Source: Candidatus Alistipes intestinigallinarum (GTDB lineage Bacteria > Bacteroidota > Bacteroidia > Bacteroidales > Rikenellaceae). Taken from it: 64,000 nt of DNA. The notes beneath the pieces are model-generated. The model worked only from the letters and a program-made list of their open reading frames with translations. It searched no databases and was not told the origin of the DNA. Of the stretch, positions 4,721-19,217 are shown piece after piece. The number at the start of each line of letters is the position of its first letter. The stretch's first letter is position 1. The stretch is from assembly GCA_019115745.1 (NCBI GenBank), contig DXDA01000068.1, positions 62,001-126,000 on the forward strand, read 5' to 3'. The translations under genes and the position numbers were made by a program.

Positions 4721-5986
4721 TTATTTTACTGCATCACAAGCATTCCAGTCATGAACGATAAAGCCCTTGTGTCCATCCGCTGTCTGGAAGGAGATGTAGT
4801 AGATATGTGATTCCTTGCCGTTGTCGCCCACTCGTTTCTGCAGATAAAGGCTCGTCAGGGCAATCTCGCTGGTCTTATCGTCATACATTACGGTTTGGCC
4901 GTCGGTTGTTACCTCAAGCAATGGCTTTCGATTGGTTGCATTCACACATTCCAGGTTATCCGCCCAACCGCCATTGAATGACACGTGCCAGCTATCCTTT
5001 CCATGATCCCAATACATGTGTTTTGTGGTTGCATAGCTTCCTCTCGATACGGTTTCCGGGATCGTTAGATCTGCTCGATAATCATCCCAAGAGATTCGAG
5101 GTGTCGGATCATCCGTGTTCATCGGCACACTCAATCGAACCTGTGCCTGCTCATTCATCCGGTCATAAACGGACAACGTTGCAGCACCATCTCCCACGAT
5201 CGTCAAGTGAATTGTTTCTCCCTCCAGACTAACCGAGACTACGTTCGGATTGTTCGATTCCACCCGATAATCACCGTTGCCGGAAAGGATATGAATCTCC
5301 TTAGTCTCCAACTCGCCGCCATAATTGTATGTTCCCGTGATTTCGCCTTCCACATCCAATACCAGTGGTGCGAGCGGGTCCGTTACGGAGACCTTGATCG
5401 TGACGCTCTTCTGTTTGCAATCCCGGACCGTAATTTCGGCCTCTTCGATATTCGATTTTCCTTTCAGGGAGAGAAGCCAACCGTCCGTACTCTCCGGATC
5501 CTGTATGATCGAGGCCTCTACGGATTCCGGCGCCGAACTATATGCCTCATATCCACCGTTCCCGGACAAAATCTTCAGGTTCTTGACCGAGCCGTCATTA
5601 TCCAGACGCAGCACGCCCGTCTGGCCAGGAATGGACTCCAATACCAGATCGTAAAGCTGCTTGACGGTCACGATCATCCGGGCTCGGTTATAACCGTCAT
5701 CCGAGAGATGGACCATTGTCGAGCCGATTTTCCCGGCCGTCAACCGAATTACATCATCCGCGATGATTGCGGTTACGATCTCCGGGTCATCGCTCTTCAC
5801 GCGATAATTCACGCCGGGCAGACCAATCGTCACGTCGAAAACATCCTGTTCCGACAGAACAACATCGTGGCTGCTCAGAGGCACATTGACATATGAAAAA
5901 TGAGTATCCTGATCTTCACTGCATCCCATGCCTGCCCAACACGATATGGCGATAAGTATTTGTATCGAAGTTTTCCAAAGTTTCAT
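4721..5986 (-). CDS. PUL-associated lipoprotein with about three tandem Ig-like repeats and a distinct C-terminal domain
   Basis: Lipobox AISCWAGMGC; repeated ILSGNGGYEAYSSAPESVEAS / ILSGNGDYRVESNNPNVVSVS units. Confidence 0.75.
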   Translation of the reverse strand: MKLWKTSIQILIAISCWAGMGCSEDQDTHFSYVNVPLSSHDVVLSEQDVFDVTIGLPGVNYRVKSDDPEIVTAIIADDVIRLTAGKIGSTMVHLSDDGYNRARMIVTVKQLYDLVLESIPGQTGVLRLDNDGSVKNLKILSGNGGYEAYSSAPESVEASIIQDPESTDGWLLSLKGKSNIEEAEITVRDCKQKSVTIKVSVTDPLAPLVLDVEGEITGTYNYGGELETKEIHILSGNGDYRVESNNPNVVSVSLEGETIHLTIVGDGAATLSVYDRMNEQAQVRLSVPMNTDDPTPRISWDDYRADLTIPETVSRGSYATTKHMYWDHGKDSWHVSFNGGWADNLECVNATNRKPLLEVTTDGQTVMYDDKTSEIALTSLYLQKRVGDNGKESHIYYISFQTADGHKGFIVHDWNACDAVK

Positions 5987-6003
5987 AGGTTCAAGCATTC
6001 AGG

Positions 6004-7431
6004 TTATTTTTTCTTTCTGTTTTTCGTGTAGTCGAACAAACCTCGCGCATCCAGCCGGGCTTGAAGTTCGTGAATGTCTACATCCCGTGTCCGGAGATTT
6101 TGGGCGGCACACAAGGCGGCAGCCGTACCGGCCGCTTCGCCGATCAGTGCGCAAATCGGCTGCACGCGATAGGAACTGTGGGCGATTTTGGTCCCGCTGA
6201 TGATCCGACCGGCCGTCAGCAGGCCTTCCGTATTCTTGGGGGTGAGGCAACGGTAGGGGATTCCGTAGGGAGGCGTGTGTTTTTTCTCCTCCGGAATCTT
6301 CATGCCCCAGGCGTCAAGACTATAGTGGGCATCGGCCACTTTGTCCTCCGGCATGATTCCCTGAATAATGTCGTCGGCCGTCAGCACATAGTCTCCCGTG
6401 ATACGGCGAGCCTCCCGGATTCCTATCTTGGGCGCCAGCGTGACCGAGAATCCGGCCTCGTTGATCACCCGGATGTTGTGTTCCAGTTTCTGAAGTCCCT
6501 TGAGTTGCCCGGCTGCAACTTCGACCGGATCGCATGTATTTTTCACCGGGACTGTCGTTCCCCAAAAGAGATAAGCGCCCTTGTCTCGTTTGTGAATCTC
6601 CTCCAGATTCTCTTTCCGCAGCCAATCCGGCTCTCCGGCCTCCATGCCGCTGCTCCCTTTGAGTTGATCCAACGGGAATTTGGCATCCGGGCGGATCTTT
6701 TGAGCGAGAAACATCCACGTACAGGGCTGTACTTTTCCGTCGCCGACGGCCATACCCACCGATTCTCCGAAGTCCTCCATCGATTCGTTGCCGTACATGA
6801 ATTCGCACCCGGCCGACGCTGCGACCAGCCCGGTTCCCGTAGCATCGATCGTCACTTTGGCCCGGACCTCCTGCAGACACCCATTCCGCAACATGCGCAC
6901 ACCCTTGACCTCAATCTTCCGACGGCTCCGTTCGACAATCGCCTCTATGACCGGGCAGCCGCACATCAGTGTCAGATTGGGCTCCGCGGCGATCAGCTCA
7001 AGGGCAACCTGTTGGAACGAGGTGGGATGCCACCAGTTGTTTTTTCCATTGTAACTGTTGTTGAAATTCGGATCGGGCTTTCCGGAGAGATCATGCTTTT
7101 CATTGAGCCGGTTGATCATCTCACTGAATACGCCCAACCGGGGAGCACCGCAGACAAACGGAACGAACATGTCGACCGGAGCTCCACCCGGTGCCATATC
7201 CTCCTCGATCAACACGACTTTTGCTCCTTCCCGAGCTGCAGCGATTGCTGCCGGGATTCCTCCGGGGCCGGCACCGACGACTGCCACATCAAACTCCAAT
7301 GGGGGATACATCGGCGTTTCCGCCGAGGCCTCGCGGATTACGTTTGCGGCTTGGGACAACCGCGGAGCCACTACTCCGGCCGCAATCCCGAGGCCGGCTA
7401 TTTTCAAGAAATCTCTTCGCTTGATTGCCAT
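6004..7431 (-). CDS. Tat-exported FAD-dependent oxidoreductase (FAD_oxidored, PF12831-like)
   Basis: Twin-arginine signal MAIKRRDFLKIAGLGIAAGVV; Rossmann DVAVVGAGPGGIPAAIAAAREGAKVVLIEED; GLLTAGRIISGTKIAHSSYRVQPICALIGEAAG. Confidence 0.9.
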   Translation of the reverse strand: MAIKRRDFLKIAGLGIAAGVVAPRLSQAANVIREASAETPMYPPLEFDVAVVGAGPGGIPAAIAAAREGAKVVLIEEDMAPGGAPVDMFVPFVCGAPRLGVFSEMINRLNEKHDLSGKPDPNFNNSYNGKNNWWHPTSFQQVALELIAAEPNLTLMCGCPVIEAIVERSRRKIEVKGVRMLRNGCLQEVRAKVTIDATGTGLVAASAGCEFMYGNESMEDFGESVGMAVGDGKVQPCTWMFLAQKIRPDAKFPLDQLKGSSGMEAGEPDWLRKENLEEIHKRDKGAYLFWGTTVPVKNTCDPVEVAAGQLKGLQKLEHNIRVINEAGFSVTLAPKIGIREARRITGDYVLTADDIIQGIMPEDKVADAHYSLDAWGMKIPEEKKHTPPYGIPYRCLTPKNTEGLLTAGRIISGTKIAHSSYRVQPICALIGEAAGTAAALCAAQNLRTRDVDIHELQARLDARGLFDYTKNRKKK

Positions 7432-7439
7432 AACAAATC

Positions 7440-8126
7440 TCATTTACCGGTTTTCAATGCCTCGATCACGTTCGGGGCAATCATTTCCAGCGCGCCCCGT
7501 TTGGTAGAATGTACGCCGTCATGCAGAAAGTTTCGGAACCCTTTTTCTCCTTTTTTCTCGATGATCTCATTCCAGATCGGAGTGAAATCGATGATCTGCA
7601 GGCGGTATTTGTCCGCCAGGGTATGATACCCTTCGATGTAGGATTGCAGATTCGGTCGATCTTCGGCGCATTTTCCCAGTGGATGCGTAGAGACCACCAA
7701 CAGGATGACTTCGGCTTTGGGGTTCTGTTCGCGGACCTTGCGAATCATGTAGTCCGTATTCTTCATCGACTGTTCCGGAGAGATGTCGAACCGGGTTACG
7801 GCATCGTTGACCGAAAACTCGATGATCAAGGCATCCGGTTTAACGGAGAGCACGCTGTCTGCGAAATTATTGGCGCCCCACTGGGAGTTGCGACCGCTGC
7901 CACCCCGATTGAATACGGTCAAATGTCCTTTGTATTCGGCATTGAGCACTTCGCCGATCTGCTCAACCCATAACGGGCCGTTGCCCAAACGGGTAATACT
8001 GGTCCCGTATACGACCAGCGTACGATCATGGCCTTTGCGCAGATCCTTGACGAAACGGCTTTGTGCTGCGACCGAAATCGTAATGAAAAGACAGCAAGCT
8101 AAAAGAATGATTTTGTGGTTTTTCAT
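7440..8126 (-). CDS. SGNH/GDSL-family hydrolase, secreted
   Basis: Signal peptide; VVYGTSITRLGNGPLWVEQIGE, GRNSQWGANN, IIEFSVNDA, LHDGVHSTKRG blocks. Confidence 0.87.
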   Translation of the reverse strand: MKNHKIILLACCLFITISVAAQSRFVKDLRKGHDRTLVVYGTSITRLGNGPLWVEQIGEVLNAEYKGHLTVFNRGGSGRNSQWGANNFADSVLSVKPDALIIEFSVNDAVTRFDISPEQSMKNTDYMIRKVREQNPKAEVILLVVSTHPLGKCAEDRPNLQSYIEGYHTLADKYRLQIIDFTPIWNEIIEKKGEKGFRNFLHDGVHSTKRGALEMIAPNVIEALKTGK

Positions 8127-8183
8127 GGTTATCTTATTTTGCGATTTGACGATCCAATTTGTCGCAAGGCGACCTGTATCCGG

Positions 8184-9620
8184 TTATTTTTGGCGGCTTT
8201 TGGTAAAATCGAAAAGTCCATGTGCATCCAGTGAAGCCTGCAGTTCCCGGATCTCGATGTCCCGTATCCCGGTTTTATGCCGGGCCGCCATAGCCGCCGC
8301 CGTACCGGCCGCTTCGCCCGTATTCGAACAGATCGGCTGGACGCGATAGGAGCTTGCGGCGATATGGGTTCCGCTGATGATGCGTCCGGCCGTCAACAGT
8401 CCTTCCGTGTTTTTGGGGACCAGCGAACGATATGGAATGCCGTAAGGCGGCACCACCTTTTGTGCACGGGTCAAATGCATTCCCCAGGGATCGAGATCAT
8501 ACCATGCCTCGGCCACTTTGTCATCCGGGAATCGGCCCTCCTGAATATCCGAGAGGGAGAGCACATATTCGCCCACGATGCGGCGACACTCCCGGACTCC
8601 CATTTTGGGGGCAAGATTGCATGTAAAACCAGCCTCCCGAAGAGCTTCGATTTCGGGTTCCAACTGTGCGAGCAGTTTCATCTGTGCCTCGGCACACTGC
8701 AACGGATCCCGGGTGTCGGCGACCTGAATGGTCTTGCCCCAATGCAAATAGATTCCGGCATCCCGAGCGGCCCACTCCGCCTTGTCTTCGGGCAGAATCC
8801 ACTTGTTCAGATTGTCTTCAACAACTCCGCCCTTGAGCTTTTCGCGCGGAAGAACCGCCCCTTTCCGGATTCGCTGACTGATAAACAGCCAGGTACAGGG
8901 CTGTGTCTTTCCGTCCCCTTTCTCAAGACCCAGATTTTCGTTGAAATCGCTTTTGCTCTCCCGGCCGTACAGGATCTCGCATCCGGCCTTTTCCGAGACC
9001 AGACCCAACCCGGAGGCATCGATGGTTACATGGGCACGAATATCCTGCAGGGCTCCGCCCCGGTAAATCCGCACTCCCTTTACCCGGTTCCGATTCCCGG
9101 CGTCTTCGGTGATTGCATCGACGACATGGGCTCCGCACATCAATGTGATATTGGGATATTCGGCCAGCATGGAGGTCAATACCTGCAGATAGGAGGTCGG
9201 ATGCCACCAGTGATTCTTTCCGTCCATTCCGTCCTTGCCGAAAGTCGGGACGGGCGTCCCCGAAAGCGTGTGCCTGGCATTGAGCTCACCGACCAGCCGC
9301 TGAAACAGGCCGACGCGAGGGGCCCCGCAAATGAAAGTCACAAACTGATCGAGCGGCGCGCCTCCCGGGAGCATGTCCTCTTCGAGCAGCACGACCCGGA
9401 CTCCTTCGCGGGCAGCGGCGATGGCTGCCGGAATTCCGGATGCACCGGCTCCTACCACAGCGACATCGAAATCGACCGGATCCATCCGGGGGATCTTCGA
9501 TTCGGCCTCCTTTTTCATGAAATCAGCTCCCAGCACGTCAAACGGATTGACGGTCATGGCAGCTACTCCGGCCACACCCAATGTCCGGATGAAAGAACGT
9601 CTGTCTATCTTTTTCATCAT
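8184..9620 (-). CDS. Tat-exported FAD-dependent oxidoreductase, paralogue of the 6004-7431 gene
   Basis: Twin-arginine signal KKIDRRSFIRTLGVAGVAAM; DVAVVGAGASGIPAAIAAAREGVRVVLLEED; same C-terminal block as the paralogue. Confidence 0.9.
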   Translation of the reverse strand: MMKKIDRRSFIRTLGVAGVAAMTVNPFDVLGADFMKKEAESKIPRMDPVDFDVAVVGAGASGIPAAIAAAREGVRVVLLEEDMLPGGAPLDQFVTFICGAPRVGLFQRLVGELNARHTLSGTPVPTFGKDGMDGKNHWWHPTSYLQVLTSMLAEYPNITLMCGAHVVDAITEDAGNRNRVKGVRIYRGGALQDIRAHVTIDASGLGLVSEKAGCEILYGRESKSDFNENLGLEKGDGKTQPCTWLFISQRIRKGAVLPREKLKGGVVEDNLNKWILPEDKAEWAARDAGIYLHWGKTIQVADTRDPLQCAEAQMKLLAQLEPEIEALREAGFTCNLAPKMGVRECRRIVGEYVLSLSDIQEGRFPDDKVAEAWYDLDPWGMHLTRAQKVVPPYGIPYRSLVPKNTEGLLTAGRIISGTHIAASSYRVQPICSNTGEAAGTAAAMAARHKTGIRDIEIRELQASLDAHGLFDFTKSRQK

Positions 9621-9624
9621 AGCG

Positions 9625-11337
9625 CTACAAATTATCGATTATTTTTCTCGTTGCATCGGGATCGTGTTTCATGCGGATCCTCCACAGGACCTCTTCCAGC
9701 GAAACGACATGGACAGACGGTGCCAGACGCTCCATGCACCATTCTACGGCCGCAACGCCCCGCACGGCCGCACGGTCTTCGTCCTTGGCGTCGACGATGT
9801 TGCCTGCCCCATCCTTGGCATATCGGGACCAGGCGTGTACGATCGTCCAGCCCAACGACTCTTCGTTTTCCGCCGCAGCATTGATCCGGTCCGCAATCTG
9901 ATCCGGCCGTCCGAATCCTTCACCCGCTATTTTCCCCCACAACGAATAGTGCGGCGTCACTACCGGGATTTCGACACCGTCACGGTCCTTGACCCAGTAG
10001 ATCGCTCCATGACCGGCGTGATAGGGATTGTACTGGAGTACGACGATTCCCGTCAACCCCTTTATCTCCTCCGCATAGATTTTATAGACCTGCAAGGCCT
10101 CCTCCGAGCTTACGTCGTGCAGCATCATCAGATTCAATACGGAGATTCCAAGGTGGTTCATATGTTCTCCCGTCTGCCGGGCGAATCGGCGCAGTTTCTC
10201 CCAACGGTCGGGGTACTCTTTTGCGAAGCAGTCGGGATACTGATAACCACCGCTGAATTCGACAAGGGTTGTGCCCTCCTTCTGCTGCCGGACAATCTCG
10301 TTCCAGGTTGCGGGGCTCATCTGGGAGATATTGGCCGAACAGGTCGTCCAATTCACCGGAACCCGGCCATATGCCGGAGACCGGTAGTATTCCCTGCTGA
10401 AAAACGCATCCATTGTCCACTGCATATTGTCCCCGTCGCTCATCATGAAGGCGTGATAGCTCCCCGGCTGGGCAAAGTCAATCTTCCGCGGGTCGATTCG
10501 CCGGGCCTTGTCCAGACGGGCCTCTTTGGCCCCGGCCGACAGGAAGGTCAGATTGGAGCAGTAGTCGGATGCCGTATTGAACAATGCATACTCCGAAGGA
10601 GGAGCCACATGGTCAGACTCGGGTCCGGCGTTCCATCCCACAACCGGAGTCAAGGGCTCCGCGCGGGAAAGGATCTCCCGATACACGCTGTCAACGCCGT
10701 AATAGACCATCGCCCGGTGTGCTATGGCCAGATCGCGGTTGAAAGCGAGTTGCGGTTTCATGGCCAATACCAGCCGATGATTCAGCTTCTCGCCGGCTTC
10801 TTGCCAACAAGCCTGCTGAGACTCGTTTCGGGCGTCGTACAACATCTGCAGGCCCATACCGTCGGCTCTGTTCCGGAGAGACTCCTCGATCAGCACGGCA
10901 TCCCGTATTCCGGCGTGAACGGTTGCCGGATTCAGACTCTCATTCTCCTGCGAATAGAGGACATACCCTTTTATAATGCCCTTTTTTTTCAACAGAGAGA
11001 CCAACTGCCAGACATCCTTGTACCCGTCGGACCGGATTCCAAGCGTGCGGCGGGTATTTTTCAACCATTTCTCGTAGACCGGGCGATTGCATTCGACCCA
11101 AACCATCCGGTTGAAGCGTCCGTCGTTGACGGCTCGAGCTGCCAGTCCGGCTACGGATTGCGCCAAAACAGCCTCGGCGCGTCCCGCAGGCAGCCGACAG
11201 GTTACATAACGCTCCGCAGCTTGCTGCTCTGGCCACCAGAAGGTCCGGGACTGTCCGTTGACAGCCCGTCCCGACAAGAGAACCGCCAGAAGGGTTAAAA
11301 GAATTTTTGCAGGAGCCATCGGTTTGCGATTACTCAT
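9625..11337 (-). CDS. GxGYxYP-domain protein (putative glycoside-hydrolase-like family)
   Basis: Start at MSNRKPMAPAKILLTLLAVLLSG; FMMSDGDNMQWTMDAF and VEFSGGYQYPDCF match the family signature. Confidence 0.75.
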   Translation of the reverse strand: MSNRKPMAPAKILLTLLAVLLSGRAVNGQSRTFWWPEQQAAERYVTCRLPAGRAEAVLAQSVAGLAARAVNDGRFNRMVWVECNRPVYEKWLKNTRRTLGIRSDGYKDVWQLVSLLKKKGIIKGYVLYSQENESLNPATVHAGIRDAVLIEESLRNRADGMGLQMLYDARNESQQACWQEAGEKLNHRLVLAMKPQLAFNRDLAIAHRAMVYYGVDSVYREILSRAEPLTPVVGWNAGPESDHVAPPSEYALFNTASDYCSNLTFLSAGAKEARLDKARRIDPRKIDFAQPGSYHAFMMSDGDNMQWTMDAFFSREYYRSPAYGRVPVNWTTCSANISQMSPATWNEIVRQQKEGTTLVEFSGGYQYPDCFAKEYPDRWEKLRRFARQTGEHMNHLGISVLNLMMLHDVSSEEALQVYKIYAEEIKGLTGIVVLQYNPYHAGHGAIYWVKDRDGVEIPVVTPHYSLWGKIAGEGFGRPDQIADRINAAAENEESLGWTIVHAWSRYAKDGAGNIVDAKDEDRAAVRGVAAVEWCMERLAPSVHVVSLEEVLWRIRMKHDPDATRKIIDNL

Positions 11338-13012
11338 AATAGGGGTTCTGATACATGCCCTCCTTGTTTTCGGAGATCTGGATTTCACTCAAAGGAATGG
11401 GGAAAATATAGTGTTTCTTCCCGTCGAAACTGGTCTTTGTCGTGGCATATTCATTCCGGTCTTCCAGGAAATGCTCCAGCATTCCGGTCCGAGCCAGGTC
11501 ATACCAGCGCCATCTCTCAAAACACAACTCCCGAGCCCGTTCCATCAGAATATCCTCCAACCCATAATCCGCATAATCCAGAAAACTGGGAGTTTCCGAT
11601 TCCGGGATCGGTTGACCTTGCTCATCCACACCCCGAGCCCGTTGTACGATCCGGTTCATGGCTGCAAGTCCCGCTTCGGTGGGAGAACCTCCGTTCAGCG
11701 CCAGATCCGCCTCTGCATACATCAGGAGAACATCGGCAAAACGCAAAACAATCACGTTGTTGGGACAGTTCGAATAGACGAAGTCGGTATGTTCGTCCTG
11801 CCAGGTCTCGCCCCACCGGTATTTGGTGATACCGCTGCTCAATACCGTGTTTTTGTTTGAATTGTCCCCGACTTGAGGAGCTCCGCTCAACGAAGAGATC
11901 GGCGATTGGGTTTTGGGCTTGTTTGTGGATTTGTCGAATCGAATGATGTAATCGGCCAAATTCCATTCCCGCCGTTTGTCGTAGCCGTTTCCGTCATAAT
12001 AGGACCAGAAAGCGGGTACATATTTCAAATTGCACTGCCCGGCAATGGCATTCGTTCGCCATCCGCCATAGAGCACGGTTCCATTATAATCCACCGGGCG
12101 GGCTCCATACTCTTTTGACCATTGGGAGCCGTAGGGGATCTGTGCACTGAATTGAATCTCCCAAATCGTCTCCTTGTTGATATTCTTGTTTTCGATTTTG
12201 AAGACATCACCATATACCGGCTCCAGATCGCGCCCGCTGTTGAGCATGACGTCCTGCAACAGCGTCGCGGCATCCCCGTAAAGCTGTTCGTCGGAGCGGG
12301 TGATCCGCTCGTATCCGTCCACCTTGCCCGCTTTGCGCGCCGAGGCCATCGTAATATAGACTTTGGCCAGCAGGGTTTTGGCTGCCCAATAATTCGCCCA
12401 GCCGCCATCGATCTCTTTGGGAAGCACGCCCTCTTCCAGACAGTAAAGCAGGTCTTTTTCAATAAAATCATAGATCACATCGACCGGAGAACGCCCCATG
12501 TCGTAGGTCAGTTCGGTTATGTGGTCCTCCATCAAGGGCACGGCGCCGAAAACCTGTACGAGATTGAAATAGGCCCAGGCCCGAAGGAACCGGACATTTC
12601 CTACATACTGACTGATCAGTTTCGGATCGCCTTCTATGCCCCTGGATTTGTATATGACCGTATTGCAGGTCGTAATGATCCGATAGTACCGATACCAGAA
12701 ATCCTTGACACACCCATCCGTAGAGGTAAACGTATATCGGTCGATAAAACCCCGTAAATTGGTCTCATCCGGATACATACATTCGTCCGTCCCCACCATT
12801 CCGATGAAAAGCGGCGTATTGCTCCCGACAAAGTAGATCTGGGGCAGCAGCGAAAAAGCCCCGACGGTTCCGGCCTTGAGAGATTCGATCTCCGTATAAA
12901 AATTACCCTCGGAGAATTCCGATTCAGGAGTCTCATCCAGAAAATTCGCGCAGGACGGTGCACATACGGCCGCTGCCGCCATGACGAATATTGAAAATAT
13001 ATGCTTTTTCAT
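11330..13012 (-). CDS. SusD/RagB-family nutrient-binding outer membrane lipoprotein
   Basis: Lipobox CAPSC, SusD N-terminal layout (DETPESEFSEGNFYTEIESLKAG), C-terminal LCFERWRWYDLARTG...KHYIFPIPLSEIQISE. Confidence 0.95.
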   Translation of the reverse strand: MKKHIFSIFVMAAAAVCAPSCANFLDETPESEFSEGNFYTEIESLKAGTVGAFSLLPQIYFVGSNTPLFIGMVGTDECMYPDETNLRGFIDRYTFTSTDGCVKDFWYRYYRIITTCNTVIYKSRGIEGDPKLISQYVGNVRFLRAWAYFNLVQVFGAVPLMEDHITELTYDMGRSPVDVIYDFIEKDLLYCLEEGVLPKEIDGGWANYWAAKTLLAKVYITMASARKAGKVDGYERITRSDEQLYGDAATLLQDVMLNSGRDLEPVYGDVFKIENKNINKETIWEIQFSAQIPYGSQWSKEYGARPVDYNGTVLYGGWRTNAIAGQCNLKYVPAFWSYYDGNGYDKRREWNLADYIIRFDKSTNKPKTQSPISSLSGAPQVGDNSNKNTVLSSGITKYRWGETWQDEHTDFVYSNCPNNVIVLRFADVLLMYAEADLALNGGSPTEAGLAAMNRIVQRARGVDEQGQPIPESETPSFLDYADYGLEDILMERARELCFERWRWYDLARTGMLEHFLEDRNEYATTKTSFDGKKHYIFPIPLSEIQISENKEGMYQNPYYE

Positions 13013-13023
13013 AGACGTTTCGA

Positions 13024-16000
13024 TTAAAAGATGAAGTTGAATCCAACGGAATAAGAGCGGTTGCGGGGATAGGCGCTGTAATCAAGACTGGGCATCAAGT
13101 CGCCGGTCTGCCCTTGCCGCGTATTCACTTCCGGATCGTAGCCCGAATAGTCGGTGAAGATCCAGAGGTTTTTAACCGAAGCGAAGAACTTCAACCCGGA
13201 CATGCCGATTTTCCGCGCCAGTTTTTGCGGGAAAGCATACGACAGCGTCACGTCGCCGATCCGCAGGAACGATCCGTCTTCCAGCATCTTCGACGTACAA
13301 TAGTTCAGAGCGACACCTCCCGGCATCCGATATTTGGCATTCGGATTTCCGGCCAAAACCAGGTTCCCCGATTCGTCGTAAAGCGTCGGTGACCACGAAT
13401 CCCGCATGGCTGTGATCTGGTTGTGCCCGTCACGGCCGCTGGTCAGGGAGTGCAGATTGGCATTGAATACCGTGGCTCCATAGCTGAACTGCATCGCCAC
13501 ACTCAGTGTCAGACTTTTGTAGGATACCGTATTGGTAAATCCTCCGGTAAACAGCGGTTCTCCGCTGCCCAGGAGCACCTGATCCGCCGAGGTGATCTTT
13601 CCATCGTTGTTTTCGTCGTGGAATCGATAGGTTCCGGGGTATATGTTGGCGATTTTCTGTCCCAACACTTCGGTCAGTCCGTGTTCGTCGATCTCATACT
13701 GCGAGCCATAGATTCCTTCGATCTTGTAGCCATACCACTGGCCCAGGCTCTTTCCTTTGCGGATCATGACGAAATTTCCGGATCCGGGAATAATTCCGGG
13801 ATCGAACCCCATCTCCCCGCCCGGACCGATATCGAGCACCTTGGAGCGATTGAATCCGATATTGAAATTCATGGACCAGTTCCATCTCCGGTTCGATACC
13901 GGGACGGCATCGACCGTCACCTCCACCCCCTGATTCCGGACCGATCCGATATTGGCCCAACCCGTCTTGTACCCGGTAGCCAGGGCTGCATTCTTCTCCA
14001 GGAGCAGGTCCTTCGTCTCTTTGTTGTAGAGGTCCAGCGTCAAGGCCAGCCGGTTGTCGAAAAAGGCCATGTCCAATCCGAGATTGATCATGTCGGTTGT
14101 CTCCCATCGTAAATCCGTATTGGCCGGACGATCGATGATGGCTCCATACGTCAAATCGGATCCGTTCATCGGATAGAACGACGTTGCAATGGTCGAGAGA
14201 CTGCGATAGGCCGGGATAGCCGTGTTGCCGCTGCGGCCGTATCCAAAGCGCAGTTTCAGGTTGTAGAATACGTTGAGGTCCTTGATGAAGGGCTCCTCAT
14301 TGATACGCCATGCCAAGCCTACCGACGGGAATCCGGCCCATTTGTTCCCGGCCCCGAAACGCGAGGAACCATCGGCCCGATAGCTGGCCGTGAGCAGATA
14401 GCGCTCCTTGTAATTGTACTCCGCCCGGGCGATGAACGAAACCATGTTCCAGTCAACAATCGACGTGGTGGGAATTTGAGGAGCAATCCCCATGCCCATG
14501 CCGTCGACACCCAGGTTCAACTCCGGGAAATCCTGATTCTCGACTCGGAGCACGTTGCTGCGGTAAGTCTCGATCGTACTTCCTCCCAACAACCGGAGTT
14601 TGTGGTTGCCTTTCCAGGTATTCGAATAAGTCAGGAATGCCTCTCCCGAAAGTTTCTTGACCTCGGTCGACGATACAATTCCCCGGCCGTGCATTTTGAA
14701 TCCCTGCTCCGTATCCGCCGGATAGAACACCTCCGCTTTTTGGTGGTTGTCCTGATAAGTCCCGGCTCCTCGTAGCGACAGTTGGGGCAAAATCTTCCAT
14801 TCCACCTGTAACCGGGCCGTAAGTTCGTCCCGATACCGATCGTTGGTAATATCCCTGACCTGCGCATAGGGGTTGGAGATTACGTTCCCCTGTTCATCGC
14901 CTTCTCCCTCCATGATATTGTCCGAGTCGGCCGAATAGGTAGGCGGCTGCCGGAGAAGTTTCATGATCAACCCATCCGAACTTCCAGTCGCCAATCCCGA
15001 GTTCTTAGTCCGGGAGGCGGACAAGTTGGCCGTCATGGTCACGGTCTTAGCCAGATTTTGGGTCAAATTGACTCGTCCCGTGTAGCGTTCGTAGCCGCTG
15101 TTAATCACAATTCCATCCTGGTTGAGATAGCCTCCGGATACTGAATATCGCGTATTTTTATTGCCTCCGGAGACATTGATCCGGTATTCCTGATAGATGG
15201 CTTTTCGGAACATGAGATCCTGCCACCGGGTGTTGACGCTGTCGGGGTGGTTGTATGCCTGCCAGTTTTCATAGGGCGATCCGACGGGAAGCACCCAATA
15301 GTTGCCGTCGCCGTTCGGATTGTCCCGATAGACCGTACCCTCTTCAAACGAGGAAGGAGACGTACCGTACGGATAATATTTCCACCCGGCTTTGTATCTT
15401 AAATAGGTATAGTCGGCCGAATTGAGCATGTCATATTCGCGCACAGCCTCTTGAAAGCCGAAATTGGCGTACAATTCGACCCGGGTCTTGTTGTCCGAGG
15501 ATCCTTGTCGAGTTGTGACCAGAATCACGCCATTGGCGCCTCGCGATCCGTAAATGGCCGTTGACGAGGCATCTTTCAAGATCTCGATCGATTCGACATC
15601 TCCGGGATTCAGGAAGGAGGCGTCATCACAAATCACTCCGTCGATGACAAAGATCGGAGCACTCGACGCGTTCACCGAAGAAGCACCTCGAATCCGAATC
15701 GTATAATCCGATCCCGGGGAGCCGTCATTCTGGATGATCTGCAGACCGGCAGCCTTGCCGCGCATGGCGTCTTCCAGGGAGACGATGGCCCGATCGCTCA
15801 AGGCATCCTTGTCTATGGAGGAGATGGAGCCGGTCAGGTCGGAGCGGCGGGTCGAGCCATAACCGATGGCTACCACCTCTACTTCGTCCATTCCCACGGC
15901 ATCTTCCTGCATCGTTACATTGATCGTTGTCCGATTTCCGACGCGATGGGACACGGTTTTCATACTGAGCATCGAAAATACCAACACGGACTCTTTGGAT

Positions 16001-16206
16001 GGCACCGTAATGGTATAGTCACCCTTGCTGTTTGTCGAGGTTCCTTTCCGGGTTCCCTCCACGATCACCGTGATGCCAGACAAGGGCTCACCCTTGCTGT
16101 CGCTCACTTTACCAGAGACCGTGATTGCCGAATTCTGTCCCCAGACCTGAGCGGATAGAATCAGCATAAAAACAGCTACCAAGTAGCGTAGTCCATTTTT
16201 TTTCAT
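13024..16206 (-). CDS. SusC/RagA-family TonB-linked outer membrane protein
   Basis: 1060 aa; ITVSGKVSDSKGEPLSGITVIVEGTRKGTSTNSKGDYTI, TonB box region EVEVVAIGYGSTRRSDLTGSIS, SSTAIYGSRGANGVILVTT. Confidence 0.97.
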   Translation of the reverse strand: MKKNGLRYLVAVFMLILSAQVWGQNSAITVSGKVSDSKGEPLSGITVIVEGTRKGTSTNSKGDYTITVPSKESVLVFSMLSMKTVSHRVGNRTTINVTMQEDAVGMDEVEVVAIGYGSTRRSDLTGSISSIDKDALSDRAIVSLEDAMRGKAAGLQIIQNDGSPGSDYTIRIRGASSVNASSAPIFVIDGVICDDASFLNPGDVESIEILKDASSTAIYGSRGANGVILVTTRQGSSDNKTRVELYANFGFQEAVREYDMLNSADYTYLRYKAGWKYYPYGTSPSSFEEGTVYRDNPNGDGNYWVLPVGSPYENWQAYNHPDSVNTRWQDLMFRKAIYQEYRINVSGGNKNTRYSVSGGYLNQDGIVINSGYERYTGRVNLTQNLAKTVTMTANLSASRTKNSGLATGSSDGLIMKLLRQPPTYSADSDNIMEGEGDEQGNVISNPYAQVRDITNDRYRDELTARLQVEWKILPQLSLRGAGTYQDNHQKAEVFYPADTEQGFKMHGRGIVSSTEVKKLSGEAFLTYSNTWKGNHKLRLLGGSTIETYRSNVLRVENQDFPELNLGVDGMGMGIAPQIPTTSIVDWNMVSFIARAEYNYKERYLLTASYRADGSSRFGAGNKWAGFPSVGLAWRINEEPFIKDLNVFYNLKLRFGYGRSGNTAIPAYRSLSTIATSFYPMNGSDLTYGAIIDRPANTDLRWETTDMINLGLDMAFFDNRLALTLDLYNKETKDLLLEKNAALATGYKTGWANIGSVRNQGVEVTVDAVPVSNRRWNWSMNFNIGFNRSKVLDIGPGGEMGFDPGIIPGSGNFVMIRKGKSLGQWYGYKIEGIYGSQYEIDEHGLTEVLGQKIANIYPGTYRFHDENNDGKITSADQVLLGSGEPLFTGGFTNTVSYKSLTLSVAMQFSYGATVFNANLHSLTSGRDGHNQITAMRDSWSPTLYDESGNLVLAGNPNAKYRMPGGVALNYCTSKMLEDGSFLRIGDVTLSYAFPQKLARKIGMSGLKFFASVKNLWIFTDYSGYDPEVNTRQGQTGDLMPSLDYSAYPRNRSYSVGFNFIF

Positions 16207-16254
16207 TTAGATGAGGTTTTAGGTTTGGGTTCGAAACGTACGTTCCGCGGTTGA

Positions 16255-16262
16255 CAAAAATA
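16255..16262 (-). promoter_or_regulatory. Putative susC -7 element (TATTTTTG)
   Basis: TAnnTTTG on the minus strand about 50 nt upstream of susC; adjacent to the inverted repeat at 16280-16327. Confidence 0.5.
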
Positions 16263-16279
16263 GAATGCTCCTATTAGCG

Positions 16280-16327
16280 CAAGGGTTAATAAACGGGTTA
16301 TCGGGTCAAAAAAAACATTAACCCTTG
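16280..16327. promoter_or_regulatory. Candidate operator: perfect 11-bp inverted repeat CAAGGGTTAAT-N26-ATTAACCCTTG
   Basis: Directly readable; lies between the divergent susC and regulator genes. Confidence 0.55.
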
Positions 16328-16337
16328 AAATTTTTCG

Positions 16338-16345
16338 TATCTTTG
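16338..16345 (+). promoter_or_regulatory. Putative -7 element (TATCTTTG) of the PUL regulator gene
   Basis: TAnnTTTG 26 nt upstream of the ATG. Confidence 0.45.
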
Positions 16346-16371
16346 CGAGAGAACCATGGACGCGAAACCTA

Positions 16372-18924
16372 ATGACCAAATATTCCATACTTTTCCCGTT
16401 GTTGCTGCTTCTGAATTTCGGGGTCTTGAATGGGCAGGAATCCGCCGCATCGGGTCTGCTCTTCGCTTCGAAGACCGAATCGATCACCCAACGGACCTCG
16501 CTGGAGCTCTTCGACCGGCATCCCTGTAAACTCCGCAACAACTTTTCCCTCAGTTTCGAAATATCCATTCGTGACACGAAACGTTTCGGCTATATCCTGC
16601 GTTTGATTGACGAGGAGAAGGAGCGGGCCAGCCTTGTGTTCGTCAATTTTCGGGAGGGGAACAATTACTACATCGATTTCAATACGACCCAAACAAAACA
16701 CAACCTGCCCATGCCGGTCCATCCCGATATTGCCGGTACGGGCAAATGGATTCCGATCCGGATGGATTTCGATCTGGTCAACGATCTGGTCCGGCTCCAG
16801 ATTCATGATGCGTCATACGAATGTCGCCGGATCGGGCTCAAGAATCCGAGTCGTCTGCGTCTGATTTTCGGGTGTCATGGTATCAATCTGGATGTTCCGG
16901 CCATGGCGCTGCGCAATATCCGGATCACGGAAAAAGGAAAAATCCGCCAGATCATTCCGTTGGATGAATCGTCGGGACACGTCGTCCATAACTCGAAAGG
17001 ACAGGAGGTAGGGCACGTCAAAAATCCGACGTGGCTCATTTCCGAACATTTCAATTGGAATCAGGTCGCCGATTTCGAGACCCAACTGACCTCCGGCATC
17101 GCCTACAATCCCTTTTCCAACGAAGCCTACATCATCGGCAACGACTCGCTTCTGATCTTCCAGACGGATACCCGAAACATCATTTCAACGCCCATTGAGC
17201 ATGTCCCCATGCTCATCGACGAGGCCATCTACAATCTGAAGACCAATCAGACTTATCTCTACAACCTCGACAATCCGGACACACTCAGCCCCTCGGTGGT
17301 TCTGCTGAACATGGAGACCTTGAAAATCGATCAGGAGGGATTTCCGCCGGTCATCAGAAACCGCCTGCACCATCATAACGCCTTTTTCGAACCGGAATAC
17401 GATACGCTGTTTCTTTTCGGCGGTTACGGGAACTTCTCATACTCCAACAAACTGTTCGGCTATGAATCCGTTTCCGACCGTTGGCGGGAAATTCCCTTTT
17501 CGAAGGGGGGGGGTCAAGCCTGTCCTCGTTTTTTTGCCGCAAGCGGCGAAGGGCGGAGTGATTATGAGATTCTGATTTTCGGCGGTTTCGGCAATGAATC
17601 CGGCCGTCAGGAGTTGGGCGGGAAAAACCTTTATGACCTTATATCTCTTGATCTGCAGACAAAAGAGGTTCGGAAACTATGGGAAATCCCGGCCGATTCC
17701 CTGTATGTTCCGGCGACCAACCTTATTCTGAGCCGGGATAAAAAAAGTTTCTATACGCTGGTTTATCCTCATCATTTGGCTTCGTCCCGGCTTGTTCTAT
17801 GCCGTTACGACCTGGAAACAGGGCACTCGGAGGTCGTCAGCAGCAGCATTCCCATCCTCTCCGAAGAGATCATCACCAAGGTTTTTCTGTTTCACAATGC
17901 CGCAATGAATGAGTTGGTGACGGTCATTCGGGAGTATAAGGATAAGAAACGGGCCAACATTCGGATCTATACCCTCAACATGCCGGCGGTTTCAGCTCAT
18001 GAATTGTCTGCCAAGAACTATTCCGTGCGATCGTTTCCGTTTCAGACGATCGCTCTTTTGGTGACGGCACTCATTCTGGGAATTCTGCTCTATTTGTACT
18101 GGCGATTCAAAACCGGCAGTCGGAAGAGTCCAAGTTCCGCCATGCATCCTACCGCCAAGGAGCGGATTCAGACCAAAAATGCGATTTACGTATTGGGCGA
18201 TTTTCTTTCATTCGACAATCGGGGCAGCGAAAACACCTATCGTTTCAGTGCCAAACTCCAGATGTTGTTTTCGCTGGTTTTGCTGCACAGCAAAAGGGAA
18301 GACGTCGGGATTTCGACCAAACTGCTGTCGATGACCTTGTGGCCGGACAAGGAGATGGGAGAGACCAAAAATATCCGGGGCGTGACGATCAACCATCTGC
18401 GAAAGATTCTCGAAGACATCGATGGCATTGAGTTGACCTACGACAATTCGAAATGGAAGTTTTCTTTTGGAGACGCTTTTTACTGCGATTACATTCATTG
18501 CATGAATCTGTGCCAAGAACTTCTTCAGTCGGAGGATTTGAAGCCTTATGCGACGTCGCAGGACAAAGAATTGGAATCCAGGATGGATGCTCTGCTCAAG
18601 ATATTGAACCGGGGGCCGCTTCTTCCGTTGATGACGGAGCCGTGGATCGAGAACAAACGCCGGGACTTCGAAGCTGAGGTTGAAAAAGTCTTTTTGCAGC
18701 AAATTCAACGACAGCAGGCCTTGGGCAATCATGACCGAGTCATGCAACTCATCGAGACCCTGTTCATCATAGATCCGCTCAATGAAGATTTCTTGTCCAT
18801 GGGGGTTTCCACGTTGAAGGTCATGGGACGTTTGGATCGAGCCTTGAAGTTGTATCATGACTTTTGCAATCGCTTCAAGGCGGCCATTGGCGTAGAGTAT
18901 CCGCATACGTTTGAGGCTCTTTAA
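16372..18924 (+). CDS. Transmembrane one-component regulator: signal peptide, LamG/ConA-like and Kelch-like periplasmic region, TM helix, cytoplasmic OmpR/SARP-type winged helix plus BTAD/TPR-like tail
   Basis: FGGYGNFSYSNKLFGYESVSDRWREI and FGGFGNESGR (kelch); TM IALLVTALILGILLYLYW; GISTKLLSMTLWPDKEMGETKNIRGVTINHLRKIL (SARP-like wHTH); helical tail RVMQLIETLFIIDPLNEDFLSMGVSTLKVMGRLDRALKLY. Confidence 0.8.
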   Translation: MTKYSILFPLLLLLNFGVLNGQESAASGLLFASKTESITQRTSLELFDRHPCKLRNNFSLSFEISIRDTKRFGYILRLIDEEKERASLVFVNFREGNNYYIDFNTTQTKHNLPMPVHPDIAGTGKWIPIRMDFDLVNDLVRLQIHDASYECRRIGLKNPSRLRLIFGCHGINLDVPAMALRNIRITEKGKIRQIIPLDESSGHVVHNSKGQEVGHVKNPTWLISEHFNWNQVADFETQLTSGIAYNPFSNEAYIIGNDSLLIFQTDTRNIISTPIEHVPMLIDEAIYNLKTNQTYLYNLDNPDTLSPSVVLLNMETLKIDQEGFPPVIRNRLHHHNAFFEPEYDTLFLFGGYGNFSYSNKLFGYESVSDRWREIPFSKGGGQACPRFFAASGEGRSDYEILIFGGFGNESGRQELGGKNLYDLISLDLQTKEVRKLWEIPADSLYVPATNLILSRDKKSFYTLVYPHHLASSRLVLCRYDLETGHSEVVSSSIPILSEEIITKVFLFHNAAMNELVTVIREYKDKKRANIRIYTLNMPAVSAHELSAKNYSVRSFPFQTIALLVTALILGILLYLYWRFKTGSRKSPSSAMHPTAKERIQTKNAIYVLGDFLSFDNRGSENTYRFSAKLQMLFSLVLLHSKREDVGISTKLLSMTLWPDKEMGETKNIRGVTINHLRKILEDIDGIELTYDNSKWKFSFGDAFYCDYIHCMNLCQELLQSEDLKPYATSQDKELESRMDALLKILNRGPLLPLMTEPWIENKRRDFEAEVEKVFLQQIQRQQALGNHDRVMQLIETLFIIDPLNEDFLSMGVSTLKVMGRLDRALKLYHDFCNRFKAAIGVEYPHTFEAL

Positions 18925-19094
18925 GATCCGGTTTATTACAAGATTGTTCTCGGGAGATGTTTTCCGGCCTTTGACAAAAGGTCCGACAGCCTTGCTTTTG
19001 AGTGACTTAGCCTTTGTCGGCTTGCCGAGACCCTCCCAGATGTATTCGTGGTATGGTCAGGATTTGGCGTGTTTTTGGCGGCCCCGAAAAAACA

Positions 19095-19126
19095 AAACCG
19101 CGTCAAACTTTTGTCTGACGCGGTTT
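19095..19126 (-). terminator. Rho-independent terminator of tRNA-Leu
   Basis: Perfect 11-bp stem AAACCGCGTCA / TGACGCGGTTT followed on the minus strand by TGTTTTTT. Confidence 0.85.
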
Positions 19127-19130
19127 CCGG

Positions 19131-19217
19131 TGCCCAGGACAAGACTCGAACTTGCACGAACGCAATTGTTCACTACCCCCTCAAAGTAGCGTGTCTACCA
19201 ATTTCACCACCTGGGCA
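19131..19217 (-). tRNA. tRNA-Leu, anticodon GAG
   Basis: 87-nt type II tRNA: TGCCCAG/CTGGGCA acceptor, GGTAGACACGC, anticodon stem-loop CTACT-TTGAGGG-GGTAG, T arm GTTCGAGTC, long variable arm; no encoded CCA seen. Confidence 0.92.

Follow-up and report, generated by a model that had tools for sequence, protein, structure and literature searches.

A membrane-anchored Kelch-propeller protein with a SARP-like output module as a predicted regulator of PULs in Bacteroidota

The window analysed here is a stretch of 64,000 nucleotides from Candidatus Alistipes intestinigallinarum (contig DXDA01000068.1). It contains a PUL and, divergent from the susC-like gene of this PUL, a gene for a protein that joins a Kelch beta-propeller, a single transmembrane (TM) helix and a SARP-like DNA-binding module. 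We consider it highly probable that this protein is a membrane-bound one-component SARP, which turns on susCD once its propeller has bound a glycan in the periplasm. Computation yielded the domain order, the SARP fold of the modelled output module, the single TM helix, the absence of phosphorelay domains, the linkage to PULs and conserved operator-like repeats. Scanning named genomes yielded 131 relatives. The best 80 of them, from Bacteroides, Sphingobacterium, Dysgonomonas, Cytophagales and others, were kept and form, together with the window protein, the 81-member set referred to below. As the scan relied on motifs in the propeller of the closer relatives, the set is biased towards these.

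Domain architecture of the regulator

The regulator gene (16372..18924, + strand) begins with ATG and encodes 850 aa. A preliminary description had read this ORF as a membrane protein composed of a sensor half and a DNA-binding half, and both halves were located as claimed. Hydropathy reveals two hydrophobic segments and no more, residues 1-19 and 557-575. The first coincides with an AF2 helix (residues 3-22) and makes the proposed signal peptide probable (about residues 1-21; 16372..16434, +). The second is the TM helix (18040..18096, +), followed by the basic stretch RFKTGSRK. The full-length AF2 model, built with nine homologues, is of moderate quality (pLDDT 77.6, pTM 0.55). It consists of a beta-sandwich, an all-beta propeller-like region, a helix at residues 556-582, a winged helix-turn-helix (wHTH) and a helical bundle, in this order. 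The short linker between TM helix and wHTH is poorly modelled (residues 582-598, pLDDT <50).

The sensor half comprises an N-terminal, periplasmic beta-sandwich (about residues 29-217; 16456..17022, +) and the propeller (about residues 230-536; 17059..17979, +). Two Pfam matches pass their curated cut-offs, Kelch_3 at residues 344-377 (E 8.8e-8) and Kelch_4 at residues 385-436 (E 1.2e-6), and the PDB matches of the full-length model in Foldseek are Kelch propellers, so that sequence and fold both identify a Kelch-repeat beta-propeller. Of the Kelch-like and LamG-like segments proposed earlier, the former thus stood; the latter found no Pfam support, the beta-sandwich being without any Pfam match. 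NCBIfam holds no fitting model for the regulator or for five homologues, all matches lying far below cut-off. Pfam detects no kinase, receiver, HisKA or AraC domain in the regulator, and the proposed link from sensor to DNA without phosphotransfer holds at the level of sequence.

The cytoplasmic part, residues 600-850, was modelled separately from an alignment of 46 sequences with high confidence (pLDDT 94.5, pTM 0.89). It comprises the wHTH (about residues 600-701, with a recognition helix near 662-680; 18169..18474, +) and directly thereafter a BTAD/TPR-like helical domain (about residues 706-844; 18487..18903, +), which is the core arrangement of SARPs, an OmpR-like wHTH followed by BTAD. 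Compared with the PDB by Foldseek, the model gives six matches at E<=0.001, and every one is a SARP, namely Mycobacterium tuberculosis EmbR (2fez/2ff4) and the SARP chains of Streptomyces coelicolor AfsR (8k60/8hvr). The first match outside the SARPs is a TPR protein at E 9e-3. As TM-scores are about 0.6 and the rmsd exceeds 5 A, fold and domain order agree with the SARPs, but the domains may be placed differently towards one another.

The two halves of the module are not equally visible in sequence. Pfam BTAD (PF03704) matches residues 746-844 of the window protein (E 1.2e-7) and passes its curated cut-off; among the 46 aligned members, 12 have BTAD at E<=0.01. Trans_reg_C matches in a single one of the 46 (E 0.0097), and the identity of the predicted wHTH is established by the fold of the model, not by sequence. 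Residues invariant throughout the 46-row alignment include W657, P658, V671, R677, C705, D706 and G748. A profile search with the DNA-binding module against PDB sequences returned nearly only TPR proteins and a single-sequence search no meaningful match; recognising the SARP match therefore required comparison of folds. The winged helix and BTAD tail of the preliminary description were hence recovered by different routes, the tail by Pfam and the winged helix by the fold of the modelled module, which at E<=0.001 resembles EmbR and AfsR only. By modelled fold, domain order and predicted binding sites, the output module is SARP-like.

Distribution of the family and its gene neighbourhoods

The single TM helix, previously placed at about residues 560-580, lies at the same position ahead of the DNA-binding module in all members of the 81-member set. 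In this set the mean number of lysines plus arginines is 5.1 after the helix, on the cytoplasmic side, versus 2.0 before it, and 58 of the 81 members have an N-terminal hydrophobic segment. The whole architecture is kept in full-length homologues at 21-41% identity, which confirms, as far as sequence comparison reaches, that it did not arise by chance. The window genome has one copy of the regulator and no further BTAD match. A census found the protein in 9 of 150 genomes of the same family and in 11 of 396 genomes of the phylum, the window's own counted in both; in the genus of the Bacteroides faecis record 23 of 61 sampled genomes were positive, often with several paralogues. The protein is thus sparse yet widespread in Bacteroidota. 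In the tree, L034, L013 and L028 group with the window protein as a small clade (local support 0.98-1.0).

Two relatives differ in form. At L119 (1492-3546, - strand) lies a relative of 685 aa that shares the cytoplasmic module and may have a TM helix but shows no Pfam Kelch match; it adjoins the full-length member L127 in the same genome. Judging from this form, the sensor half appears to be exchangeable. At L006/L011 (G081:C1) one family copy was matched as two overlapping pieces in different frames, which suggests a frameshifted or broken gene.

In the window, the predicted target operon runs on the minus strand away from the regulator. It starts with a SusC-like TonB-dependent transporter (13024..16206; Pfam Plug, CarbopepD_reg_2) and a SusD-like lipoprotein (11330..13012; SusD_RagB), followed by a GxGYxYP putative glycoside hydrolase (9625..11388; PF14323), an FAD-dependent oxidoreductase (8184..9620; PF12831), a GDSL/SGNH hydrolase (7440..8126; PF13472), a second FAD-dependent oxidoreductase (6004..7443; PF12831) and, as the final gene, a 425-aa lipoprotein-like protein without Pfam match (4721..5998). 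Both oxidoreductases carry twin-arginine-like N-termini. By Pfam, this PUL (4721-16206) contains no classical glycoside hydrolase, GH76, GH92 and GH125 being absent, and because it lacks mannan enzymes the ligand of the window regulator cannot be read from its context. The sister locus L028 holds SusC, SusD, GH92 and GxGYxYP. Just downstream of the regulator lies a tRNA-Leu (gag) gene (19129-19216, -), after which comes a terminator-like hairpin (19094-19127).

Across the 81-member set, SusC or SusD is found nearby in 61 loci, GH76, GH92 or GH125 in 66, and any of these in 76, the nearest such gene at a median of 418 bp. GH76 itself occurs in 48 of the 81 loci, versus about 0.02 expected per 20-kb stretch (97 matches in approximately 105 Mb from 20 such genomes), which is about thirty times the GH76 density of such genomes. 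The gene upstream of the regulator is divergent in 65 of 76 loci of the set. The census beside susCD called for by the preliminary description thus shows homologues steadily linked to transporters and glycan degradation, as is expected of PUL regulators. Going by association, alpha-mannan loci are what the family chiefly regulates. In 16 loci the regulator has GtaA/DUF5127/DUF4964 proteins as neighbours, often with GH92 (e.g. L016, L017, L019 and L021, downstream of the regulator). Also recurrent in mannan-type loci are two proteins without Pfam match, about 271 and 724 aa long (L014:14921-15766, L067:2777-5008), and a 606-aa protein with a carboxypeptidase-regulatory-like domain (L022:7761-9653).

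These neighbourhoods bear on what the propeller senses. It might respond to a protein partner or to the state of the envelope, e.g. SusCD occupancy, and not to a glycan, a reading which we regard as possible although rather doubtful. It draws on the fold comparison, in which most of the best propeller matches are eukaryotic Kelch domains with proteins and peptides as ligands and no glycan-binding Kelch sensor is among the matches listed. The strong link to one substrate class (alpha-mannan enzymes in 66 of 81 loci of the set), however, fits a ligand derived from the substrate; direct sensing of a glycan by the propeller is proposed by analogy.

The neighbourhoods likewise speak to how the signal might cross the membrane. 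If the protein were a membrane-stored transcription factor, whose DNA-binding module becomes active only once regulated proteolysis frees it, the short, poorly modelled linker could be the cleavage region. No protease stands out among the annotated recurrent neighbour families, though a housekeeping protease would be unlinked anyway, and the available part of the SusR description presents SusR as a membrane regulator and does not mention cleavage (PMC3878776). We therefore judge proteolytic release improbable and keep to a membrane-bound activator.

Direct repeats as candidate operator

In the region between susC and the regulator gene (16207-16371), two copies of a heptamer stand on the same strand, GGGTTAA at 16283..16289 (+; TTAACCC on the susC strand) and, at a distance of 12 bp, GGGTTAT at 16295..16301 (+). 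The near end of this candidate operator lies 76 bp from the susC start; its position relative to promoters was judged by eye. The 2.64-Mb genome contains the strict pair GGGTTA-N5/6-GGGTTA a single time, at this very site, and its reversed control pattern not at all. An inverted copy, TTAACCC at 16318..16324 (-), lies 35 bp from copy 1 and forms with it the 11-bp perfect inverted repeat CAAGGGTTAAT (16280-16290 / 16317-16327). The 35-bp offset was seen again in one Sphingobacterium group. As an operator on its own the inverted repeat is a weak candidate, since 1.1% of Markov-resampled sequences contain a repeat of this kind.

The heptamer GGGTTAA surfaced when intergenic regions were aligned in three groups; these groups lie among the tested loci, hence discovery and test are not independent. 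In the 81-member set it is present in 46 of 81 regions upstream of the regulator, versus 31 of the 402 intergenic regions elsewhere in these loci. Spacings of 11 bp (29 pairs) and 12 bp (21 pairs) dominate among same-strand copies, followed by 19 and 23. Pairs of TTAACCC at 11 or 12 bp, oriented towards the operon, are found in 59 of 76 loci of the set and in 27 of 32 protein clusters drawn at 60% identity, a reverse-oriented pair in one locus, and no pair in 17. With 100 permuted heptamers the median was 0 clusters, and the top scorers were shifted forms of the motif (e.g. TAACCCT). When regulator-upstream regions only were counted, with one representative per cluster of the set, 15 of 33 contained the pair versus 11 of 154 controls (Fisher P approximately 5e-7); clustering at 45% identity left 11 clusters and P 0.05. 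Away from the regulator-upstream regions, 20 of 384 intergenic regions in these loci have the pair, about half of them promoters of adjacent co-directional PUL operons. In the 11 loci of the set in which the operon lies downstream and co-directional, the repeats sit in the downstream gap and keep their orientation to the operon.

Beyond the 81-member set, L093, L094, L095, L098, L102, L112 and L113 have the pair too, and its orientation with respect to the regulator is the same. L110, L114 and L115 of the extra homologues come from genomes or species that are already, or nearly, represented. Nine extra homologues (L006-L009, L096, L099-L101, L103) have no pair within 450 bp on either side. The sites bound by SARPs are direct repeats of heptamers, arranged in units of 11 bp and generally overlapping the -35 region (PMC10972967), and the predicted sites are likewise heptameric direct repeats with units of about 11 bp upstream of the target. 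The predicted operator supports binding of the regulator to the 16207-16371 region.

The layout of the window site could also be taken to mean that the regulator is a repressor or an autoregulator whose main role is a repression lifted by ligand, since the inverted copy closely precedes the promoter-like TATCTTTG ahead of the regulator gene and the inverted repeat points one arm to each of the two divergent genes. This is very improbable: with a downstream, co-directional operon the repeats shift to the promoter region of that operon and retain its orientation, and SARPs usually activate (PMC10972967). That the repeats serve another regulator of the same PULs, the Kelch-SARP protein merely co-occurring, is hardly credible, for although their assignment to this protein is a prediction and some of the PULs additionally hold an ECF/FecR pair, the repeat layout is that of SARPs, the repeats track the Kelch-SARP gene over distant lineages (the clusters of the set and more distant homologues), the pairs are few elsewhere in the same loci and about half of these stand at promoters of adjacent co-directional PUL operons, and no further regulator common to the loci was found among neighbour families.

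Proposed mechanism and relation to known systems

We propose that the regulator activates transcription as a one-component protein of the inner membrane, with type I topology. Its beta-sandwich and Kelch propeller would respond to a periplasmic ligand delivered by the adjacent uptake system, probably an oligosaccharide or other glycan fragment, or else to another ligand of the envelope. The ligand-induced change would be relayed, without proteolysis, via the one TM helix and the short linker to the cytoplasmic SARP module of winged helix and BTAD. Dimers or higher assemblies may then bind the TTAACCC direct repeats with 11-12 bp spacing upstream of the susC operon, and the bound module would recruit RNA polymerase in the fashion of SARPs. 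EmbR has been reported to be phosphorylated by Ser/Thr kinases (PMC4601284), and phosphorylation of this kind may also act on the present regulator.

It is rather likely that these proteins represent a phylum-wide, undescribed group of membrane-anchored SARP activators, i.e. transmembrane glycan sensors with a wHTH-BTAD output best known from actinobacteria, a common TTAACCC direct-repeat operator and an exchangeable sensor half, and that they form another main class of PUL switches beside SusR, HTCS and ECF/anti-sigma systems, to which PUL control in Bacteroidota is usually credited (PMC3878776). If so, a widespread further class, chiefly at alpha-mannan loci, would supply regulators to PULs seemingly without one, and SARP-type activation would be placed under a transmembrane sensor, an input not among the reviewed SARP types (PMC10972967). 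With the predicted operator, regulons can be computed from sequence and the claim of DNA binding can be put to a direct test. In the open-licence literature we found no description of Kelch combined with BTAD, of SARPs in PULs or of Kelch proteins with GH76 mannan loci. The interpretation given in the preliminary description is largely supported. What is new are the fusion partners; direct regulation of PULs from sensor to DNA is already known in principle from SusR (PMC3878776).

With SARPs (the N-terminal part of AfsR, EmbR, ActII-ORF4) the protein shares the order of wHTH and BTAD, the overall fold and, by prediction, the type of binding site (PMC10972967). It differs in its setting: a periplasmic sensor and a TM helix precede the module, which stands at the C-terminus, and the genes belong to Bacteroidota and adjoin uptake operons. 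SARP modules are usually N-terminal and without membrane anchor, a trait that is not strictly defining, whereas in all 81 members of the set the module follows the TM helix at the C-terminus. The SARP review distinguishes small, medium and large types and does not use the word 'transmembrane' (PMC10972967).

SusR-like regulators are also membrane proteins with a periplasmic sensor and a cytoplasmic DNA-binding domain, they likewise dispense with a phosphorelay, and adjacency to susCD and direct-repeat sites are shared as well (PMC3878776). In that description, however, the DNA-binding domain of SusR shows no significant similarity to known families, whereas here it is SARP-like, and the predicted spacing of SusR sites is 67 or 77 bp as compared to 11-12 bp. 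Because site spacing and DNA-binding domain differ, the Kelch-SARP protein is, going by that description, set apart from SusR.

HTCS share the large periplasmic sensor and the occurrence in PULs, including mannan PULs (HTCS_Man, PMC3878776). By Pfam, the histidine kinase, receiver and AraC domains of HTCS are absent from the Kelch-SARP protein, and it is not an HTCS. Regulators of the CadC/ToxR type are membrane one-component regulators with a wHTH, a single TM helix and a periplasmic sensor that work without phosphotransfer, all of which they have in common with the protein described here. Their cytoplasmic wHTH, however, is N-terminal and their periplasmic domain C-terminal, and they lack a BTAD, whereas in the Kelch-SARP protein the order is reversed, which places it outside this type.
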